This document shows positions 35,905 through 45,562 of a stretch of DNA of 45,570 nucleotides, one piece after another (position 1 is the stretch's first letter; every line of letters starts with the position of its first letter). The DNA lies in assembly GCA_012964825.1 (NCBI GenBank), contig DTTI01000028.1, forward strand, positions 70,614-116,183. Reading direction: 5' to 3'. Below the pieces are notes generated by a model. That model worked only from the letters and a program-made list of their open reading frames with translations, was not told where the DNA came from and made no database searches. The stretch is from Candidatus Neomarinimicrobiota bacterium. Lineage in GTDB: Bacteria; Fidelibacterota; Marinisomatia; Marinisomatales; S15-B10. The position numbers and the translations under genes are program-made.

Positions 35905-37464
35905 TCAATTCCTTTTCCGGGGCAACTTTTCATTCAGCTTGGCCGCGTGGTAAACAAAGGAAGCCATGATGACAGCATTTTTTTTCAGGTCATCAATGGG
36001 CAGTGTATCATAGTAATCCATGTTGGTGTGGCCTCCTGTGCCGCCGACACGGTCCTGCAAAAACTGGAATGCCGGAAGGCCAACCCGGTCAAAAGATACA
36101 TGATCTGTACTCCCTACACTTTGAGATGAGATAGTTGTCATTCCAAGGTCCTTAAAAGGTTCCATCCAGGATGTAAAGATTTGCCGAACATGTTCATTTT
36201 CCTGGAGATGAATACCTCTGTATTGTCCTGGGCCATAGTCTTGATTGAAATAGGCTGAAAATTTCTTATAGCCCGGTTTCAAACCGATCTCAGGGTCATC
36301 AGGATTGCCGAAATGCTTGTAGACATATTCCCTGGAGCCGTGGATTCCCTGTTCTTCACCTGACCAGAGGGCAATTCGAATAGTTTTCCTGGGCTTGGCG
36401 CCCACTGCTTTCAGGATACGGACAGCCTCCAGCATAACTGCCACACCGGAGGTGTTGTCGCTGGCGTTGGGGCTGGCGTGCCAGGTATCGAAATGGGCTC
36501 CCAGCATCACTACCTCATTCTTTTTGACTGACCCCGGTATTTCACCCAGAACATTGCTGGCTTTTTGAACTTTCTTACCCACCGTGGTTTCGATTTCTAT
36601 TTTAATTTTTACAGGGATGTCTCTTTCAAGGATCCGGTACATACGGTTGTAGTGTTCAGGGTTAACGGCGACAATGGGCAGGTGAGCCAGTGTTTCTTCT
36701 CGCGCCCATTTATCGATCTTGGCTCCGGGTCGGGCAAAACCGCGAACGGCGCCGGGCCAGCCACTACGGGATTCAAGGATCACCACGGCACCTTCTTCTT
36801 TAAAGAAAGTGTTCCGTTCTACATTTGTAATCAGGTCGGGATTGGCAGGGGGGCGAGGTTTACGGGGACCAGGCGGTATGGGTTTTTCGGCCTTTTCCCG
36901 CAACTCCTCATCACTCCACCGCTGGACACCTTCACTGTAGCGGGTCAGATCAATGATTGGCGGTGGTGTTGCCAGGACCGCCTTTCCCTTAAGCTTGTTT
37001 TTGAACTTCTCTTGGTCAGCTTTTGTCTTTATATCCGCAATAACGACATCAAGTTTTTTCCGGCCGGTGATACCCGGCGTATGGGCAATGGGGTACCCGA
37101 CCATGACCTGGTAATCCGGTTCCAAAAGATGTAATGAAAAATAGGTGTTGTCCCAGCTGACGCCGTAATCCATAAACGGTTCTATCTTCCTGTTTTCCAG
37201 ACCAATACGCTTCATTTCCTCCATGGCCCATGCCTGAGCCCGGCGCATGTCCTGTGAATTGGTGAGGCGGGCGCCTAGAACATCGGTCATATAGGATAGG
37301 GTGTTGGGGAGCTCTGAACGGTGAAATCCTTCCTCCCGGATCTTGGCAACCATTTCCCAATCTACTGGGTACTGTTGATCAATATTCTGTCCGTTGACAT
37401 GTGACTCAGCAAGCAGGAGCAGTAACAATAAAATTGTAAACATAGTGTGAAGGTATTTCTTCAC
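35905..37464 (-). CDS. Secreted M28-family metallopeptidase
   Basis: I favour GTG 37464 as start (GGGGAT 7 nt upstream, as at 33049), giving 519 aa with a signal peptide (VKKYLHTMFTILLLLLLLA). An ATG at 37497 is possible. A protease-associated insert (about 140-250) precedes the zinc aminopeptidase core. Ligands: His324 and Asp336 in AHFDTWHASPNASDN, Glu370-Glu371 in WSGEEQG, Asp409 in NQDYG, and His479 in GGTGGHTN. It probably removes N-terminal residues from peptides outside the cytoplasm. The upstream gap to the divergent aldehyde dehydrogenase-like gene contains a perfect TTGACA (minus strand, 37574-37579), but the only -10 candidate is 19 bp away. Confidence 0.88.
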   Translation of the reverse strand: MKKYLHTMFTILLLLLLLAESHVNGQNIDQQYPVDWEMVAKIREEGFHRSELPNTLSYMTDVLGARLTNSQDMRRAQAWAMEEMKRIGLENRKIEPFMDYGVSWDNTYFSLHLLEPDYQVMVGYPIAHTPGITGRKKLDVVIADIKTKADQEKFKNKLKGKAVLATPPPIIDLTRYSEGVQRWSDEELREKAEKPIPPGPRKPRPPANPDLITNVERNTFFKEEGAVVILESRSGWPGAVRGFARPGAKIDKWAREETLAHLPIVAVNPEHYNRMYRILERDIPVKIKIEIETTVGKKVQKASNVLGEIPGSVKKNEVVMLGAHFDTWHASPNASDNTSGVAVMLEAVRILKAVGAKPRKTIRIALWSGEEQGIHGSREYVYKHFGNPDDPEIGLKPGYKKFSAYFNQDYGPGQYRGIHLQENEHVRQIFTSWMEPFKDLGMTTISSQSVGSTDHVSFDRVGLPAFQFLQDRVGGTGGHTNMDYYDTLPIDDLKKNAVIMASFVYHAAKLNEKLPRKRN

Positions 37465-37746
37465 GGAAAAATCCCCGTTTCTGGTTGAAATTGGCAAATT
37501 AGGTTGAAAAACATAATGTTGATATTAAAAGGTTTGTTTAAAAGGGCGTATATCCGTTTTCTGCATCAGTGCTTGTCAAACCTACATATAATTGAAGCGG
37601 AGTGACAAGTCCTGAGAGGAAAATACAATAAATCCCTCATTATACAGTGGTTTCTTGAGTGGTCAGGGCAAAAGTACTTGTCATGTAGTAGGTGGTAGTT
37701 CAGCTAATGGCAATTTCTTCAAGTTATTCCATAAGATTACCTAACT

Positions 37747-39526: not shown

Positions 39527-39571
39527 CCGGGGTGATAGGATTTGAACCTACGCTCCCTGCTTTTCGGAGAG
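39527..39571 (-). other. 3'-end fragment of a type-II (Ser-like) tRNA; possible attachment-site scar
   Basis: Read on the minus strand, a possible long variable arm (CTCTCC...GGGAG) is followed by a T-arm, GTAGG-TTCAAAT-CCTAT, a 7-nt acceptor strand CACCCCG and discriminator G (39527). The T-arm pairs at five positions (one G-U) and has the usual B-box core GGTTCAAATCC. No 5' acceptor strand (CGGGGTG), D-arm or anticodon arm exists upstream, where the sulfotransferase coding sequence ends three bases away. No CCA follows. A tRNA 3' fragment without a body is what site-specific integration leaves at the far end of an island; the intact tRNA would then lie to the right of this window. Confidence 0.5.
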
Positions 39572-39574
39572 TAT

Positions 39575-40273
39575 TCATCTGACAAAAAATAGTAAACCAA
39601 CCGTAATCACTGCAAGAATGACCAATACATACGGCATTAACCTTGCAAAATACAGTGTCATAATCATTCTATTACTGGTGTTCAAGTGTGGGAACGGTCT
39701 ATTTTCCGGTATGCCCACACCCAAAAAGTCACACAGCGGTCCCCAACCGTCCTTCACGTCAAATATCAGCAGATCTTCTTCAGGTACAGTTTGCCTCACA
39801 TTTTGAATATGATCTTGATATACCCTGCTAGCAAATTCTTTGTTGCTAAACCTGCCCTTAAAGAGGCCGTCCCAGATCAACAGATCGGTCATTTCAATAA
39901 ACTGTCCCATAGGAGGAATGATACGCTGCAGCCATACCGGAACAGTTGAGGGCACCCTGTAAATAGTCCTGACCGTACTCTGATACCACGAATCCGTGTC
40001 CCGTACCGTAAGGATAATTTTTGCGTCTGGGTATCTCGTTTTTAGTTCGTTGTAGAACAGGCTGGCAGGGAAATCCACAGTGGCATTGAACTTCTTAAAT
40101 ATATAGTCCCAATCCACTGGCTTGTCCCTTCCCGCATCGCGCCACGCCCTGATATGTTTTGGCCGTTTGATGACACTTTTCATGTGGTAGCATTTGCCGA
40201 AACCGAGGAGTTCTAACGCAACTTTTAAAGACAGCGTGCCTGTGCGGCCGAATCCTGCACCGATAACTTTCAT
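39575..40273 (-). CDS. Sulfotransferase-like protein with C-terminal membrane anchor
   Basis: 232 aa. The N-terminus has the PAPS-binding P-loop GAGFGRTGTLSLKVAL (5-20) followed by GFGKCYHM, characteristic of the Sulfotransfer_4 group found in diverse bacteria and animals. VDFPASLFYNEL, AKIILTVRDTDSWYQS and a central Arg/Ser pair complete the fold. Residues about 208-230 form a single hydrophobic helix (YVLVILAVITVGLLFF), so the enzyme is probably tail-anchored at the cytoplasmic membrane. It would transfer sulfate from PAPS to an unknown acceptor. No clear Shine-Dalgarno is present. Its stop abuts the tRNA fragment and a shortened copy of the intergenic repeat lies just upstream of its start. 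Confidence 0.82.
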   Translation of the reverse strand: MKVIGAGFGRTGTLSLKVALELLGFGKCYHMKSVIKRPKHIRAWRDAGRDKPVDWDYIFKKFNATVDFPASLFYNELKTRYPDAKIILTVRDTDSWYQSTVRTIYRVPSTVPVWLQRIIPPMGQFIEMTDLLIWDGLFKGRFSNKEFASRVYQDHIQNVRQTVPEEDLLIFDVKDGWGPLCDFLGVGIPENRPFPHLNTSNRMIMTLYFARLMPYVLVILAVITVGLLFFVR

Positions 40274-40287
40274 ACAACTTAAGAATC

Positions 40288-40339
40288 TGGCGGTGTGTTA
40301 CATATTGTTACAAAGGAGGGTGGTTATAGGCTTTTTCAT
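40288..40339 (-). repeat. Intergenic repeat, copy C (internally deleted)
   Basis: On the minus strand it begins ATGAAAAAGCCTATAACCAC, close to the start of copy B, then jumps to TGTAACACACCGCC, which matches the far end of copy B. The reading frame ends after 13 codons. It lies between the SGNH esterase stop and the sulfotransferase start. Confidence 0.45.
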
Positions 40340-40399
40340 TATTGCAAATAATTACCCTATAGTGTGGCTCCTTAAGATTGGGAATTAGGTTGAGAAGGA

Positions 40400-41110
40400 T
40401 CAATTTTCTTTACTAAGTGTAGTTGCTATAGCTGCCTCTGCAAGAGTGGACATTATTTTGTATCCATTCTTGTTTGGATGAACACCATCATAAGTGTAAT
40501 CCTTTATTAACCCTTTTTTATCATCTACCATTAACGAATAATAATCAAGATACATGATTTCATTATTTAGAGCATAATTCCTGATGATCTCATTTAAAGC
40601 GTTGATCTTTTCAACGGGATTAAGTCCGGTCTTCCAAGTGTAATCATACACTGGTAGGACCGAACAAATAATAATCTTTATATCATTAATTATTGATAGT
40701 TCAGCCATTGAAATAATATTATTGGCTATCATTTCAATGGTTGAAGGACCAGTATTCTCAGCTATGTCATTGGTCCCAGCTAATATAATTACTAGTTCCG
40801 GGTTTAGATTGATAACGTCGGCTCTGAACCTTAATAACATTTGCGGAGTTGTTTGTCCGCTGATACCGCGATTGATATATGGTTTACCTGAAAAGAATTC
40901 GGGGTGAATCGTCTTCCACCCTTCAGTAATTGAATTACCCATAAATACTATTCTATTCCCATTTGAAGGAGTTAACGCGAGTTCTGCATTTTCATTTCTG
41001 TATCGGCTAAAATTGGCCCAATCTTGAGCAGACACAACAGTGTCTTGAGCGGACACAATACTCAAAAGAAAAAATGCATAAAATAATTTATTGGATTTTT
41101 CCCTCAACAT
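40400..41110 (-). CDS. Secreted SGNH/GDSL-type esterase or lipase
   Basis: 236 aa from ATG 41110 (purine-rich GAGAGA upstream); the frame is open further upstream but that part is the intergenic repeat. A signal peptide leads into the SGNH blocks: FMGNSITEGW (nucleophile Ser60), NRGISGQTT (Gly block), LAGTNDIAENT (Asn block), and YDGVHPNKNGY with Asp208 and His211. Such enzymes remove acyl groups from lipids or from acetylated sugars. Codon use is strongly A/T-ending, unlike genes before 39500. It lies between two copies of the intergenic repeat and downstream of the small membrane protein. Confidence 0.86.
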   Translation of the reverse strand: MLREKSNKLFYAFFLLSIVSAQDTVVSAQDWANFSRYRNENAELALTPSNGNRIVFMGNSITEGWKTIHPEFFSGKPYINRGISGQTTPQMLLRFRADVINLNPELVIILAGTNDIAENTGPSTIEMIANNIISMAELSIINDIKIIICSVLPVYDYTWKTGLNPVEKINALNEIIRNYALNNEIMYLDYYSLMVDDKKGLIKDYTYDGVHPNKNGYKIMSTLAEAAIATTLSKEN

Positions 41111-41117
41111 TGTCTCT

Positions 41118-41199
41118 CTTTCATGCCGACCGTTTCCAGGTCGGTTTCCAGGTTGAGATTGAGAAACTGGTTTAGGAGTGTGACAACGACTTGTTTCAC
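41118..41199 (-). repeat. Intergenic repeat, copy A
   Basis: Lies between the stop of the 89-aa membrane protein (41202) and the esterase start. It shares TTTCCAGGTTG-GATTG-GAAA-TGGTT (plus strand) with copy B at 45031-45060 and also the flanking sequence. It contains CCGACC (41126-41131) and GGTCGG (41139-41144), a 6-bp perfect stem with a 7-nt loop. In one frame it reads NLETDLETV, comparable to NLENDWGTV in copy B. Confidence 0.55.
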
Positions 41200-41201
41200 T
41201 G

Positions 41202-41471
41202 CTAAAATACCTCGTATAACCATTTACCTGTCCTGACAACAATTAGTAATGTGCAGAACCAACTGAAGGACAAAAGTATTAGCATCAATAAAACTACCAT
41301 CCAGATGACGTAATAACTTTCACCGCGAAGCAAACCCTGACTTACAATGATATAAACACCAAAGGCATTGGGTATTAGGAAGCTGAGCTTGGCAATTTTT
41401 TCCACACCTTCATTCGTAATCCCGATCCAATCAATTATTTTCTTTAACCGAAAGTTGAAAAGAATACTCAT
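41202..41471 (-). CDS. Small membrane protein of unknown function
   Basis: 89 aa, AGGA 5 nt before the ATG. A basic, partly amphipathic N-terminus is followed by two hydrophobic segments (LSFLIPNAFGVYIIVSQGLL at about 29-48, and YYVIWMVVLLMLILLSFSWF at about 53-72) and a short tail GKWLYEVF. No family is recognised. It sits alone between the DUF4198 gene (108 bp upstream) and intergenic repeat copy A, within the AT-rich right part of the window. The two-helix layout and a usable ribosome site support a real gene. Confidence 0.55.
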   Translation of the reverse strand: MSILFNFRLKKIIDWIGITNEGVEKIAKLSFLIPNAFGVYIIVSQGLLRGESYYVIWMVVLLMLILLSFSWFCTLLIVVRTGKWLYEVF

Positions 41472-41578
41472 GATCCTGTATCTACATTACATGATGAGGT
41501 TTCCATTTATGCTTTTTGGGATAACGCTCACAATAAAGAAATTATTATCTTGATTAACTTGATCATCTGAAAAAACAG

Positions 41579-42403
41579 TTACTGGATATAAAATGTAAGA
41601 GTAGCCCAATTCGATTCGTAGTCAAAATCTTTCTTGTCACTTTTCACCATATGGATGAGACGGATATACCACTCGCCACTTTCAATTAATTCTATCTTTC
41701 CAAATCCTTTAGCATCAGTTCTTGTCGTAATTGCTTCTTCATGACTGCCATCATCGGAATGTCCGTGGAAATCGCCATGGCTTGCGTAGACAAGTTGATT
41801 GGCTACAGGCTTGCCGTCTCGGAGAACCTGGAACGCCATTTCATCTCCCTTTTGAAGTTTGTAAGGATTTTGAGAAGGGATGATCTCAATTGGGTAGCCG
41901 AGATTGGCGTTGAATGACCCGGTTCGTTTGGTACCTACCTGAATCACGGTTTTGACATGTTTGGAGTAAAGCTCCCGGGCGGGCTGATTAGTTTCACCAC
42001 TTTTCTTGCGTTCCGCCAAAACATCCGTGACCCCGTCATGTGTCAGATAACCATTGAAATCTTCGGCGGAGAGTTCAATAGTATTTGTCTTTGTTGAGAC
42101 ACCTACCACGTGGGTTCCGGTTTTATTCATCTCTAAATCAAGTAAAGTTTCATACCACCCGTCTCGCCATTGCTTTTTGTCGATACTCTTTCGTTTACCG
42201 TTGGGATCTACCATGCTGACATCAATCATTCGGTCCCTGGTAATGATATTTTCACTTTTCTCAAACGTTCCGTTATAGAGTGCGACCGTTATACTTGTAT
42301 TTGGCTCAACAATATATAATCGCAGTTTCAGAAACATATCGTGCGCGGTGAGAAGGGAGACACCGAGCAACAGAGTGATGCATAAAGCTGTAAACTTCTT
42401 CAT
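41579..42403 (-). CDS. DUF4198-type periplasmic protein
   Basis: 274 aa; AGAGGATC precedes the ATG. A signal peptide ends at LLTA, and the mature protein begins HDMFLKLRLYIVEPN, the usual start of DUF4198 proteins. Two Ig-like beta segments follow. A His-rich loop (ASHGDFHGHSDDGSH, about 208-222) could bind metal, and GEWYIRLIHM near the C-terminus is also typical. The family is linked in databases to metal (nickel or cobalt) uptake, but that assignment is weak and no transporter is next to it here. Likely a single-gene unit on the minus strand. Confidence 0.75.
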   Translation of the reverse strand: MKKFTALCITLLLGVSLLTAHDMFLKLRLYIVEPNTSITVALYNGTFEKSENIITRDRMIDVSMVDPNGKRKSIDKKQWRDGWYETLLDLEMNKTGTHVVGVSTKTNTIELSAEDFNGYLTHDGVTDVLAERKKSGETNQPARELYSKHVKTVIQVGTKRTGSFNANLGYPIEIIPSQNPYKLQKGDEMAFQVLRDGKPVANQLVYASHGDFHGHSDDGSHEEAITTRTDAKGFGKIELIESGEWYIRLIHMVKSDKKDFDYESNWATLTFYIQ

Positions 42404-42485
42404 AATTGATCCTCTACTTTCGGTTGGTTGTTATTTTTATAGCTATTAATTAAAAGTTATTTTGAGAAGAGATTCTTCAACATGA

Positions 42486-43439
42486 TTATTTTATCGTATT
42501 TCTCTCGATGAGATCCAATATTGATACTGAAACTTCTTCATAGGCTTCTTGTATCAACCAGTGACCAGCATCTATTTCAACAAATTGATAGGGTCCCATC
42601 ATATATTTTTTAGTTAACTCAGCTCCTGTCCTGCCCAGAGCAATATCCTTATTACCCCAAATTAATTGACTAGGCGTTTTTACTTCACCGAAAGTGATCA
42701 AATTATCATCAGTGATCTTTGTACCAATGTTAGCCCTGTACCAATTTAATGCAGCTTTCAGTGCGCCTTCCTGATTGAAGACATTCATGTAAACCTCAAT
42801 TTGATCATCAGTACTCTTTCTCCAGATTTTTTTCAAATTTCGATAGTTGTTAAATGAAAAATAAAATTCCGGTATAAGAGGAAGTCTAAAGAAACCGAAG
42901 TATCTGCTCTTTTTTCTTTGATCTTTATCGTTTTGATACGCTGTACGAAATGCTAACATATGGGGGACTGACATTGCTGTCCAGCTAAGAACACGATCCG
43001 GCTTTAATGCAACAACCCCCCAGCCAATAGATGAACCCCAATCATGACCCACTAAATGGAACTTCTCAAATTCGAAAGAATCTGCAATGGAAAACACATC
43101 AGCCACTATTTTCTTCATGGTGTATTCAGTTATCTGCTTTGGCCGAGCTTTGGAGCTGTAACCTCTCTGATCTGGAGCAACAACTTTATGTCCCTTACCT
43201 GAAATCAGTTTCATTAGATCGATCCACATGTGGGATGTTTCAGGGAAACCATGAAGGAGAATAACACCATCGCCATCGTTTGACATACCCGCCACCCGGC
43301 AATCAAAAACAAAATTGCCAATATTTACTTCAGCTATGGATATATCTTGGATTTGAATTTTCTGTTTTGGGTTCGTTGATTTTTCTTGACAGGCAATATT
43401 TTGTAAGATCAGAATGATTATAATAAATAATTTTATCAT
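42486..43439 (-). CDS. Alpha/beta-hydrolase lipoprotein (epoxide hydrolase/haloalkane dehalogenase-like)
   Basis: 317 aa with lipobox NIAC (Cys17). The alpha/beta-hydrolase core has HGFPE (His63 onward, oxyanion region), PDQRGYSSKARP and the nucleophile elbow GHDWGS with Asp133. An Asp nucleophile is the mark of the epoxide hydrolase/dehalogenase group. The acid is probably Asp265 in GNKDIALG and the base His293 in DAGHW. A helical cap (about 155-235) is present; cap Tyr residues are available but cannot be assigned by eye. Lipid anchoring of such an enzyme is uncommon and suggests action on exogenous epoxides or halides. AGAAGA lies upstream of the start. Confidence 0.82.
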   Translation of the reverse strand: MIKLFIIIILILQNIACQEKSTNPKQKIQIQDISIAEVNIGNFVFDCRVAGMSNDGDGVILLHGFPETSHMWIDLMKLISGKGHKVVAPDQRGYSSKARPKQITEYTMKKIVADVFSIADSFEFEKFHLVGHDWGSSIGWGVVALKPDRVLSWTAMSVPHMLAFRTAYQNDKDQRKKSRYFGFFRLPLIPEFYFSFNNYRNLKKIWRKSTDDQIEVYMNVFNQEGALKAALNWYRANIGTKITDDNLITFGEVKTPSQLIWGNKDIALGRTGAELTKKYMMGPYQFVEIDAGHWLIQEAYEEVSVSILDLIERNTIK

Positions 43440-43530
43440 TATCTTCTAACATAATTCATTAATTATCAATACTCCTACAGACCAAAAACTCTGCTAGCAA
43501 AGTTACAAACCCAAACCTATCGAACTATGA

Positions 43531-43547
43531 GACCTATTGGAGGTCTT
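43531..43547. terminator. Intergenic hairpin
   Basis: AGACCT-ATTGG-AGGTCT, a perfect 6-bp stem in the 151-bp gap between the hydroxylase stop (43591) and the hydrolase start (43439). There is no T-run on either strand, so a terminator role is only a guess. Confidence 0.3.
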
Positions 43548-43590
43548 CTAATTAATCGACTAGCGTGATGATCTAAATGATTTATGAAAT

Positions 43591-44853
43591 TTATGCTGGA
43601 TGTGGATGGGGGGAACTTATTTTTTTTTCATTTTTAAAATATACCGTCAGCAAAAATGATGTAATGAAATATAAAATAAGTGCATAAACATAAACGCCAT
43701 TTAAACCAAACCAGTTATAATTTTGAAAATAGAGCAAGCTAAATACCAAAATCAACTTCACAGATTCTGCTGCCAACGCATAATTGCGTTGATCTAATGT
43801 AGATGTGAATGAGAAAATGTTGGCAATAAGAATAACCGCGTATAGATAATTCATGGTTGTACTGAAACTTGGAATAATTGAAAAAAAATGGAACATCAAT
43901 ATGTTCGTTATCACAAGCTGTGTCCATGACCAGGCAATCAACAACGGTGAATTTTTCGTATTATATTTTATTTGTTTTTTTGGATCTGCGATCGTCTGAA
44001 GTGGATATTTTTCTTTTACATCAGCCGGGCGCCAACCGGTGGGCATAAACCAGATCCGTAGCTTATCAAGGACCCGTTCCGTGTGCCAAGCATCTTTGAT
44101 CAGATGCCACATATGCTTGAAATTAATTATCATAGGATTCCAGGTCTTCATCTGTTTAAGTGTACCATAGACCGGGTTTACATTATCTAGTTCCGGCTGG
44201 AAGGTTCCAAACAGCTTATCCCAGATAATTAAGATCTGGCTATAGTTTTTGTCGATATACTCAGGATTAATCGCGTGGTGGACCCTGTGATGAGATGGCG
44301 TAACCAGGATATATTCTAACAAGCCCAGTTTACCGATCAGTTGTGTGTGATACCAGAACTGCATAAAAAGATGCAAAGGGCCCAGAATTGCGAAAATTGC
44401 GGCAGGAACACCTAACAATGCTGCGGGTATCATAAAAATTGCCGAAAAGCGTAGCGTATTTGAAATCGACTGGCGCAGGGCGCAGGAAAGGTTAAAATCT
44501 TCGCTGCTGTGGTGGATTATATGTCTGTTCCAGAAAATATTTACGCGATGATTTAGCCGATGCATCCAGTAGCCGGAAAAATCTTGAACCATAAAAGCTA
44601 TAACAACGGCAAGCCAGACGGGCTCCAGCTTATAGACAGTCATATGATCGACCAACCAGGCATAACTGATGATTGCAAAGCTAAATTTTACTCCATCACG
44701 GATCGTATTTGTAATTCCGGAGCTCAGGCTTGAGATTACATCTGCAGAACGGTTGATTTCTACTCCTTTGAATTTCGCAGCTATCGCTTCAAAAAGAATA
44801 AGCACTATAAAAGTGGGAATCACAAAGAATAGGGATTTTATGTAGAATTGCAT
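43591..44853 (-). CDS. Sterol desaturase/fatty acid hydroxylase family membrane protein, AGMO-like
   Basis: 420 aa with several membrane helices. The di-iron His clusters of the fatty-acid hydroxylase superfamily are complete: HRLNH (His98, His102), HIIHH (His111, His114, His115) and SHHRVHH (His188-189, His192-193), with additional His161 and His169. The arrangement, followed by INPEYIDKNYSQILIIWDKLFGTF, is close to alkylglycerol monooxygenase (TMEM195) and bacterial relatives, which hydroxylate lipid chains using oxygen. The C-terminal ~120 residues add four more hydrophobic segments. A 12-bp palindrome lies just upstream. It is a single gene, AT-rich, between two intergenic structured regions. 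Confidence 0.85.
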   Translation of the reverse strand: MQFYIKSLFFVIPTFIVLILFEAIAAKFKGVEINRSADVISSLSSGITNTIRDGVKFSFAIISYAWLVDHMTVYKLEPVWLAVVIAFMVQDFSGYWMHRLNHRVNIFWNRHIIHHSSEDFNLSCALRQSISNTLRFSAIFMIPAALLGVPAAIFAILGPLHLFMQFWYHTQLIGKLGLLEYILVTPSHHRVHHAINPEYIDKNYSQILIIWDKLFGTFQPELDNVNPVYGTLKQMKTWNPMIINFKHMWHLIKDAWHTERVLDKLRIWFMPTGWRPADVKEKYPLQTIADPKKQIKYNTKNSPLLIAWSWTQLVITNILMFHFFSIIPSFSTTMNYLYAVILIANIFSFTSTLDQRNYALAAESVKLILVFSLLYFQNYNWFGLNGVYVYALILYFITSFLLTVYFKNEKKISSPHPHPA

Positions 44854-44874
44854 TTCCGCCGTGTTTGTTTAAGG

Positions 44875-44886
44875 TTGTTTAAACAA
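44875..44886. promoter_or_regulatory. 12-bp palindrome upstream of the hydroxylase gene
   Basis: TTGTTTAAACAA is a perfect 12-bp palindrome 21 bp before the hydroxylase start codon, a plausible position for a repressor site. No known consensus is matched. Confidence 0.35.
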
Positions 44887-44939
44887 TTATTAGCCTAATT
44901 AGGAATTACTCCAATGAAACAATATTGCACTTACCAGTT

Positions 44940-45086
44940 CTAAATGTCTATTAACAATAATCCCGCCGGGCGGGTGTTACAATTACTCAACAATTTGCGA
45001 GAATGTTTTATTCTGACTGTACCCCAGTCATTTTCCAGGTTGCGATTGGGAAAGTGGTTGAAAAGAGTGGTAATGGGCTTTTTCAT
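44940..45086 (-). repeat. Intergenic repeat, copy B (longest; holds a 48-codon open frame)
   Basis: The minus strand can be read from ATG 45086 to TAG 44940 (MKKPITTL...NLENDWGTV...). Its first part matches copies A and C, the middle matches D, and its far end (TGTAACACCCGCC) matches the far end of C. It contains TGACTG-TACCC-CAGTCA (45014-45030), a perfect 6-bp stem at the position equivalent to the stem of copy A, and a GC-rich palindrome, CCCGCCGGGCGGG (44962-44974). Substitutions against copy A are not mainly synonymous, so it is more likely a decayed coding end or a structured DNA/RNA element than a working gene. Confidence 0.6.
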
Positions 45087-45130
45087 TTTACACTCTACTT
45101 AAAAGGCTTTTTATAGTATACCTGTTTTAG

Positions 45131-45445
45131 CTATCGGCAAAGTAAACCTTCTTCCTCTAATTGTTTTAAACACTTATTGAATATTTTTTTTGCCTCACGA
45201 GATTCGGCCCCTTCCATAGCATCATCTATTTTTTTTGAACATCTGAGCTTTACGTCAAGCTTCTCTCCAGTTATTTTATCTACTACTTTGTAATATTTTA
45301 CCTGGCTGATTACAGTATCACCCTTTCCAAATTGTCCTTCCGAAAGCTTTTTTTCGATTGAAAGCATATTGTATATAAAAAAATCATATTTTTCGCCATT
45401 TGTTATTGTTTCTCTTTTTACGAGATGAATATTATCGTTATACAT
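45131..45445 (-). CDS. Hypothetical 104-aa protein
   Basis: 104 aa, with GGAG about 9 nt before the ATG (TTATTGGAGAGTTCGCT). It has no signal peptide or membrane helix. The N-terminal half looks like beta strands (IHLVKRETITNGEKYDFFIY) and the C-terminal half is helical and charged (SREAKKIFNKCLKQLEEEG), with two Cys (in RCSKKI and NKCLKQ). No family is recognised. Codon use is A/T-ending like its neighbours. Intergenic repeat copies lie on both sides. Confidence 0.55.
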   Translation of the reverse strand: MYNDNIHLVKRETITNGEKYDFFIYNMLSIEKKLSEGQFGKGDTVISQVKYYKVVDKITGEKLDVKLRCSKKIDDAMEGAESREAKKIFNKCLKQLEEEGLLCR

Positions 45446-45504
45446 AGCGAACTCTCCAATAAAATAACCTGCAAAAAATTAATCAACTATGTGTCGTCTT
45501 CTAT

Positions 45505-45562
45505 TATCCCAACCCTATTCCAGTCATCGGCCAAGTTTACGCAAGTGTTTGAGAAAACAAAA
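45505..45562 (-). repeat. Intergenic repeat, copy D (most diverged)
   Basis: The plus strand has CCAGTCAT followed by sequence alignable with copy B (TTCCAGGTTGCG versus CGGCCAAGTTTACGC). One minus-strand frame reads NLADDWNRVGI, close to NLENDWGTVRI of copy B. The hairpin position is kept only with G-U pairs. It lies upstream of the 104-aa protein gene, at the window edge. Confidence 0.35.

Follow-up and report, generated by a model that had tools for sequence, protein, structure and literature searches.

A repeat family in Neomarinimicrobiota that looks like a reusable start-up segment of small shared gene cassettes

The AT-rich right end of the window, by which we mean the whole 45,570-nucleotide stretch of DNA that was analysed, carries copies of an intergenic repeat that is real and is a member of a family, and which looks like a reusable start-up segment of small shared gene cassettes. 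Our preferred reading, to which we give a probability of roughly 0.42, is that the repeat belongs to the 5' head of such cassettes, which in Neomarinimicrobiota would collect head-to-tail behind tRNA genes. As far as the searched open literature on Neomarinimicrobiota/Marinimicrobia shows, where no description of the repeat was found, the family is previously undescribed. The window forms the right end of a 116-kb contig in a 2.2-Mb draft genome (the host genome, G000), and this end is indeed AT-rich, as originally described, with a GC content of 0.35-0.42 compared with about 0.40-0.52 elsewhere. Its features are as follows:

37460..37510, minus strand: decayed fifth repeat copy, directly ahead of an M28 peptidase gene (profile and G002 alignment)
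39528..39561, minus strand: 34-nt 3' fragment of tRNA-Pro(TGG), 94% to the intact tRNA-Pro(tgg) of G001
39575..40273, minus strand: cassette gene, sulfotransferase (PF17784; Pfam E 1e-66), with an 82.6% homologue in a different array of G002
40317..40340, minus strand: MKKPITTL-type block downstream of the copy-1 fragment
40371..40396, minus strand: copy 1, a left-arm fragment of the repeat (profile)
40400..41113, minus strand: cassette gene, GDSL-like lipase (PF13472; Pfam E 1e-26)
41112..41177, minus strand: repeat copy 2, between the 89-aa ORF and the GDSL lipase gene (profile)
41202..41471, minus strand: small ORF, 89 aa, no family (ORF and Pfam search)
41579..42403, minus strand: gene for a DUF4198 protein (Pfam E 1e-30)
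42486..43439, minus strand: gene for an alpha/beta hydrolase (Pfam E 3e-26)
43591..44853, minus strand: gene for a fatty acid hydroxylase / sterol desaturase (Pfam E 3e-29)
44991..45086, minus strand: repeat copy 3, core 45064-44991, left flank with an MKKPITTL block (profile)
45131..45445, minus strand: cassette gene, 104 aa, no family (ORF and Pfam search)
45486..45556, minus strand: repeat copy 4, at the contig end (profile and nhmmer)

Four copies had been proposed from the letters of the window. A profile made of 69 repeat copies, all from outside the window, scored the core of copy 3 (45064-44991, minus strand) at 50.0 bits (E 8.4e-15), copy 2 (41174-41112, minus strand) at 43.0 bits (E 1.3e-12) and copy 4 (45555-45486, minus strand) at 16.4 bits (E 2.7e-4; nhmmer E 2.1e-8), against a top score of 8.0 bits in 1.2 Mb of shuffled right-end sequence. 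Three of the four are thus confirmed as real and beyond chance, while the first is only marginal: its proposed place, 40288-40339, is that of the neighbouring MKKPITTL block, which matches the block ahead of copy 3 (45064-45087) at 88% over 24 nt, and the repeat itself is represented by a left-arm fragment at 40396-40371 (minus strand; 9.6 bits, E 0.033). The statement that no copy lies before 40 kb was not quite right, given the decayed fifth copy at 37510-37460 (minus strand; 9.2 bits), at whose orthologous place the same-genus genome G002 has an intact module M (described below) followed by the same leader. The location of the copies in gaps between same-strand genes was borne out.

Far from lacking further copies, the host genome gave 12 more in a blastn search with copy 3 at E below 1e-3, and an iterated profile brought the family to 72 copies in the fetched loci, about 30 of these in the host genome. 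In an order-wide search (E<=1e-6) the repeat was present in 9 of 130 genomes, seven from the window's family and two from another, and the relatives with the same repeat are named Candidatus Marinimicrobia or Neomarinimicrobiota. Two copies were also seen on a short contig filed as Dehalococcoidia (DLRJ01000069.1, L100), which could reflect either a cross-phylum transfer or a misbinned Marinimicrobia contig. Many copies lie at the ends of short contigs, as is expected for repeats in assembly. Carriage by viruses was considered and rejected, as exact scans of viral contigs returned only four 17-mer matches, without the remainder of the repeat.

The arrays start behind tRNA genes on the same strand, with the repeat 33-148 bp downstream (range over the arrays listed):

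G003:C11, same strand: tRNA-Ser
G003:C19, same strand: tRNA-Pro
G006:C26, same strand: tRNA-Arg
G001:C139, same strand: tRNA-Arg

If a genome is assumed to have about 45 tRNAs, chance would give less than one such case among 72 copies. A tRNA stands at one end of the arrays and a tRNA 3' fragment at the other or within: the G003 array holds two more tRNA-Ser 3' fragments, one of them 98% over 122 nt, and in the window the tRNA-Pro fragment at 39528-39561 directly follows the stop codon of the sulfotransferase gene and is taken as the putative far end of the island. The G009 array follows tRNA-Pro(tgg), and we infer the same position for the host genome, whose tRNA region is incomplete. Another host contig, C61, stops inside tRNA-Pro(TGG) at nt 47, and nothing else in the assembly matches that tRNA gene at 100%; the ends of the window and of C61 are physically separate contigs, the genomes being draft metagenome assemblies, and the other end of the island is missing. 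A search for an empty site using the ALDH-like gene that flanks the window island found no strong homologue in the relatives searched.

Copies usually bound one to four genes, and both neighbours are on the same strand in 40 of the 55 copies that have two. The interval between tRNA and repeat contains a terminator, a TTGAC-N17-TAGNTTG site and paired direct repeats with a period of exactly 15 nt. Module M, which occurs nine times in the host genome, consists of TTGAC-N17-TAGTTTG and then an inverted repeat; TTGAC-N17-TAGNTTG is common to module M and the tRNA-proximal type, with differing spacers, and module M also directly precedes genes that lack the repeat. Period-15 pairs were found in eight head regions, each pair different in sequence, while other periods gave about 1-7 pairs in 295 kb and the remaining four period-15 cases were accounted for by a pentapeptide-repeat gene and one other coding match. 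These pairs (L059:8909, 8108 and 6662; L062:910; L074:2868; L083:1324; L064:3872; L025:3430), with sequences that include TGTGCCCACA, ATGTAGATACA and TAGGGACAC, lie between the tRNA-proximal promoter-like site and the repeat, and look like candidate sites for diversifying DNA-binding proteins, either integrase arms or operators. Several copies come straight after the stop codon of a gene, at FlgD-type gene ends, and have no promoter module, so that not every copy is a gene head.

As judged from these motifs, a complete head would consist, in order, of the tRNA 3' end or the terminator of the preceding gene, the promoter-like TTGAC-N17-TAGNTTG, an operator-like element (the period-15 paired direct repeats or the inverted repeat of module M) and the repeat of about 95 nt, after which would come usually one gene, with up to four between copies, and a terminator. 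Both the promoter and the operator are predicted elements. Each cassette would obtain its own transcription and translation start from its head, the latter through stop/start overlaps at columns 35-38 and 55-58 of the repeat. Integrases provided in trans would insert incoming cassettes at tRNA 3' ends, with newer arrivals pushing older ones outward, and the shared repeat would provide homology for cassette shuffling and for deletions between copies. This putative expression-head function is likely; it is weakened by the missing integrase, by the copies without a promoter module and by a breakpoint test with no more than a suggestive outcome.

The repeat has a consensus of about 95 nt, ATCAGCTTTCTCAACCACTTTCCCAATCTCAACC..AARTGACGGGGGGACGGTCGGGATGAAAGAAGCACCCACATYGTGATATAAT, with a left boundary that is fairly sharp whatever the upstream gene (ATCAGC or ACATTATG) and a right side that fades past TATAAT. 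Its left arms fall into those behind module M, those behind FlgD-type gene ends, type B (ACATTATGCTTTTC) and type C (ATGAAAAAGCCCATTACCACT), the last being the MKKPITTL of the original prediction. Stop/start overlaps are conserved: of 42 copies, 32 have [AG]TGA at columns 35-38 and 31 have ATGA at columns 55-58. The repeat's own TGA (columns 36-38) is the stop of some genes, and certain genes downstream have the column-55 ATG as their start codon (a PRK-type kinase gene on two contigs and, by alignment, the M28 gene). The suggestion that copies are decayed 5' ends of one gene family was right in part: cassette genes begin with signal-peptide sequences that the MKKPITTL block resembles, and the ATGAAA of the repeat coincides with some start codon positions. 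The peptide readings that had been noted are truly related, but no coding signal was found family-wide; in the open frame the syn/nonsyn ratio was 0.41 where 0.37 was expected, 11 of 42 copies have indels that break the frame, and a coding peptide was rejected on these grounds.

A translational relay, which we regard as improbable, would make use of the same overlaps. Tiny ORFs chained by stop/start overlaps would let ribosomes pass between captured genes, from the upstream gene or the start in module M to MxxHQLSQPLSQSQPGK(stop), then MTGGRSG(stop), then ATGAAA. If this were true, any gene inserted behind the repeat would be expressed, and the repeat would be a portable expression head in a cassette system without an integron.

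A shared structured leader had been among the four meanings first proposed; the shared leader is the best supported of them, but the structured RNA is not borne out. A riboswitch, attenuator or other structured RNA leader would fit the position of the repeat 5' of genes and the terminator-like tail of one copy (G006:C26), but mean folding z was about 0 on both strands, +0.1 (RNA) to +0.5 (DNA), with no hairpin beyond those of shuffles, and Rfam gave 0 matches at the gathering score; we consider such a leader extremely unlikely and rejected structured RNA. RNAalifold found no pairs in a consensus structure for real and shuffled alignments alike, which says little by itself. In the G006:C26 copy (L054:6365-6420), right behind tRNA-Arg, the tail is a perfect-looking terminator hairpin with a T run, apparently joined at CACCCACATT.

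Sharing of cassettes is seen in comparisons between genomes, in which one cassette occurs with unrelated neighbours in different genera. A cassette for a 148-aa lipoprotein is present in G000, G009 and G003 with unrelated left flanks, each stopping at the ATCAGC of the repeat, and also in G001, there without the repeat. G000 and G006, which belong to different genera and share only 66% nucleotide identity in a primase-region stretch, have a cassette for a NAD-binding protein, repeat included, at 97.6% identity, and a 541-bp unit is shared between different families at 88.5%. In the orthologous units L055:4100-4600 and L077:2600-3017, a deletion was seen between two CTCAAC motifs within and just after the repeat.

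The right-hand repeat of the lipoprotein cassette is present in G000 and G003 and missing from G009. This orthologous gap, with bounds AATGATGAAA/AATCATGAAA and near-identical 10-bp flanks, is the one presence/absence case that speaks for a small non-autonomous, MITE-like insertion element, a very unlikely explanation in our judgement. The presence of the same repeat after that gene in G003 makes loss in G009 simpler than insertion; moreover, no terminal inverted repeats and no consistent duplicated target were seen, the ends are variable and the orientation is always that of the genes. The small mobile repeat of the original prediction is not supported.

The points at which shared DNA gives way to unshared DNA are scattered over the length of the repeat. 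Relative to shifted positions these breakpoints are enriched in it (21 observed, 3.3 expected), but when other intergenic gaps serve as the control, shared blocks end in 16 of 49 repeat-bearing gaps and in 28 of 144 others (p=0.075), so that this enrichment is only suggestive and we do not rely on it. The scatter would suit a passive repeat, that is, the duplicated flank of an expanded family of genes for secreted proteins with a FlgD/Por_Secre_tail C-terminus and MKK-type signal peptides, spread without function by hitchhiking and homologous recombination. Several copies directly follow the stop of a FlgD_ig/Por_Secre_tail gene, with identity of about 80% running into the gene, but copies are also found behind tRNA genes and module M, where there is no such gene, and the consensus is kept across genera that in a core stretch now share about 66% nucleotide identity; we hold this explanation to be rather unlikely.

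That the copies are recombination sites between single-gene cassettes, as had been proposed, holds for the cassette layout; as recombination sites the copies are at most candidates. An integron-like system, with the repeat as attachment site of a dedicated, unrecognised site-specific recombinase, would account for the single-gene cassettes, the uniform orientation, the same cassette in different neighbourhoods and the contigs that end at copies. Yet no such recombinase is consistently near the arrays, the crossover is not at one point, the copies have neither an inverted core nor a hairpin and breakpoint enrichment over other gaps is weak, which leaves this system quite unlikely. No integrase was found adjoining any array, those seen being Xer-like or tRNA-linked and often decayed, and no tyrosine recombinase was found beside the array tRNAs, decayed ones lying at other tRNAs. 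The host genome also has a truncated tyrosine recombinase at the end of a contig (L051, G000:C18:45523-46370), with a tRNA-SeC gene on one side and a tRNA-Ser 3' fragment on the other; these are the remains of another tRNA island. At G007:C29:31302-32120 (L088) there is a 302-aa tyrosine recombinase in which both ends of the IntI model match strongly and the middle is unmatched; it falls below the family cut-off.

The co-oriented, mostly single-gene units with one repeat family between them resemble integron arrays (attC/IntI, including CALIN), and the short ORFs of the repeat, with their stop/start overlap at the junctions, are reminiscent of the small ORFs that aid translation in integrons (PMC8876359, PMC4670013). 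The differences are that no IntI above the TIGR02249 cut-off was found in the repeat-bearing genomes, that the attC core pair RYYYAAC...GTTRRRY occurs in 0 of 72 copies on either strand and that no hairpin is present. Integron cassettes are generally promoterless, unlike the many cassettes here that are preceded by promoter-like modules. The only IntI above the cut-off was in G004, which lacks the repeat; the strict attC pattern had no match beside this IntI either, and is thus a pattern without a positive control. The G004 locus (C83:12717-17103, L161), from the same family, has an IntI of 439 bits and co-oriented small genes that include a BrnT/BrnA-like pair. An attC/IntI integron was rejected, the tested features excluding a classical integron as what drives these arrays.

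Additive flexible genomic islands at tRNA genes have been described in Alteromonas (PMC4119200), Ca. Actinomarinales (PMC7771536) and Methylophilaceae (PMC10872708). From the passages of these papers that we drew on, the arrays have in common with them a conserved tRNA as target, cassettes that are short and variable and end in recurring tRNA 3' fragments, and exchange between genera; those passages mention only tRNA-end repeats, whereas here an intergenic repeat of ~95 nt and promoter-/operator-like modules open many cassettes. Tycheposons, as cited in PMC10872708, are likewise cargo elements anchored at tRNA genes of ocean bacteria, but a unit here measures about 0.5-4 kb, and no gene for a tyrosine recombinase was detected beside the arrays. 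The arrays are best filed as a variant of additive tRNA-anchored islands to which a shared head module has been added.

Marinimicrobia (SAR406) are abundant, uncultured ocean bacteria. The repeat labels genes that they have acquired, and so offers a handle on the gain and expression of foreign genes; it can serve directly as a marker for such islands in metagenomes, whose assemblies are often broken at copies of the repeat. If our preferred reading is true, a cassette system with its own start-up segment, relying on tRNA sites in place of an integron, would be a second route to cassette arrays.
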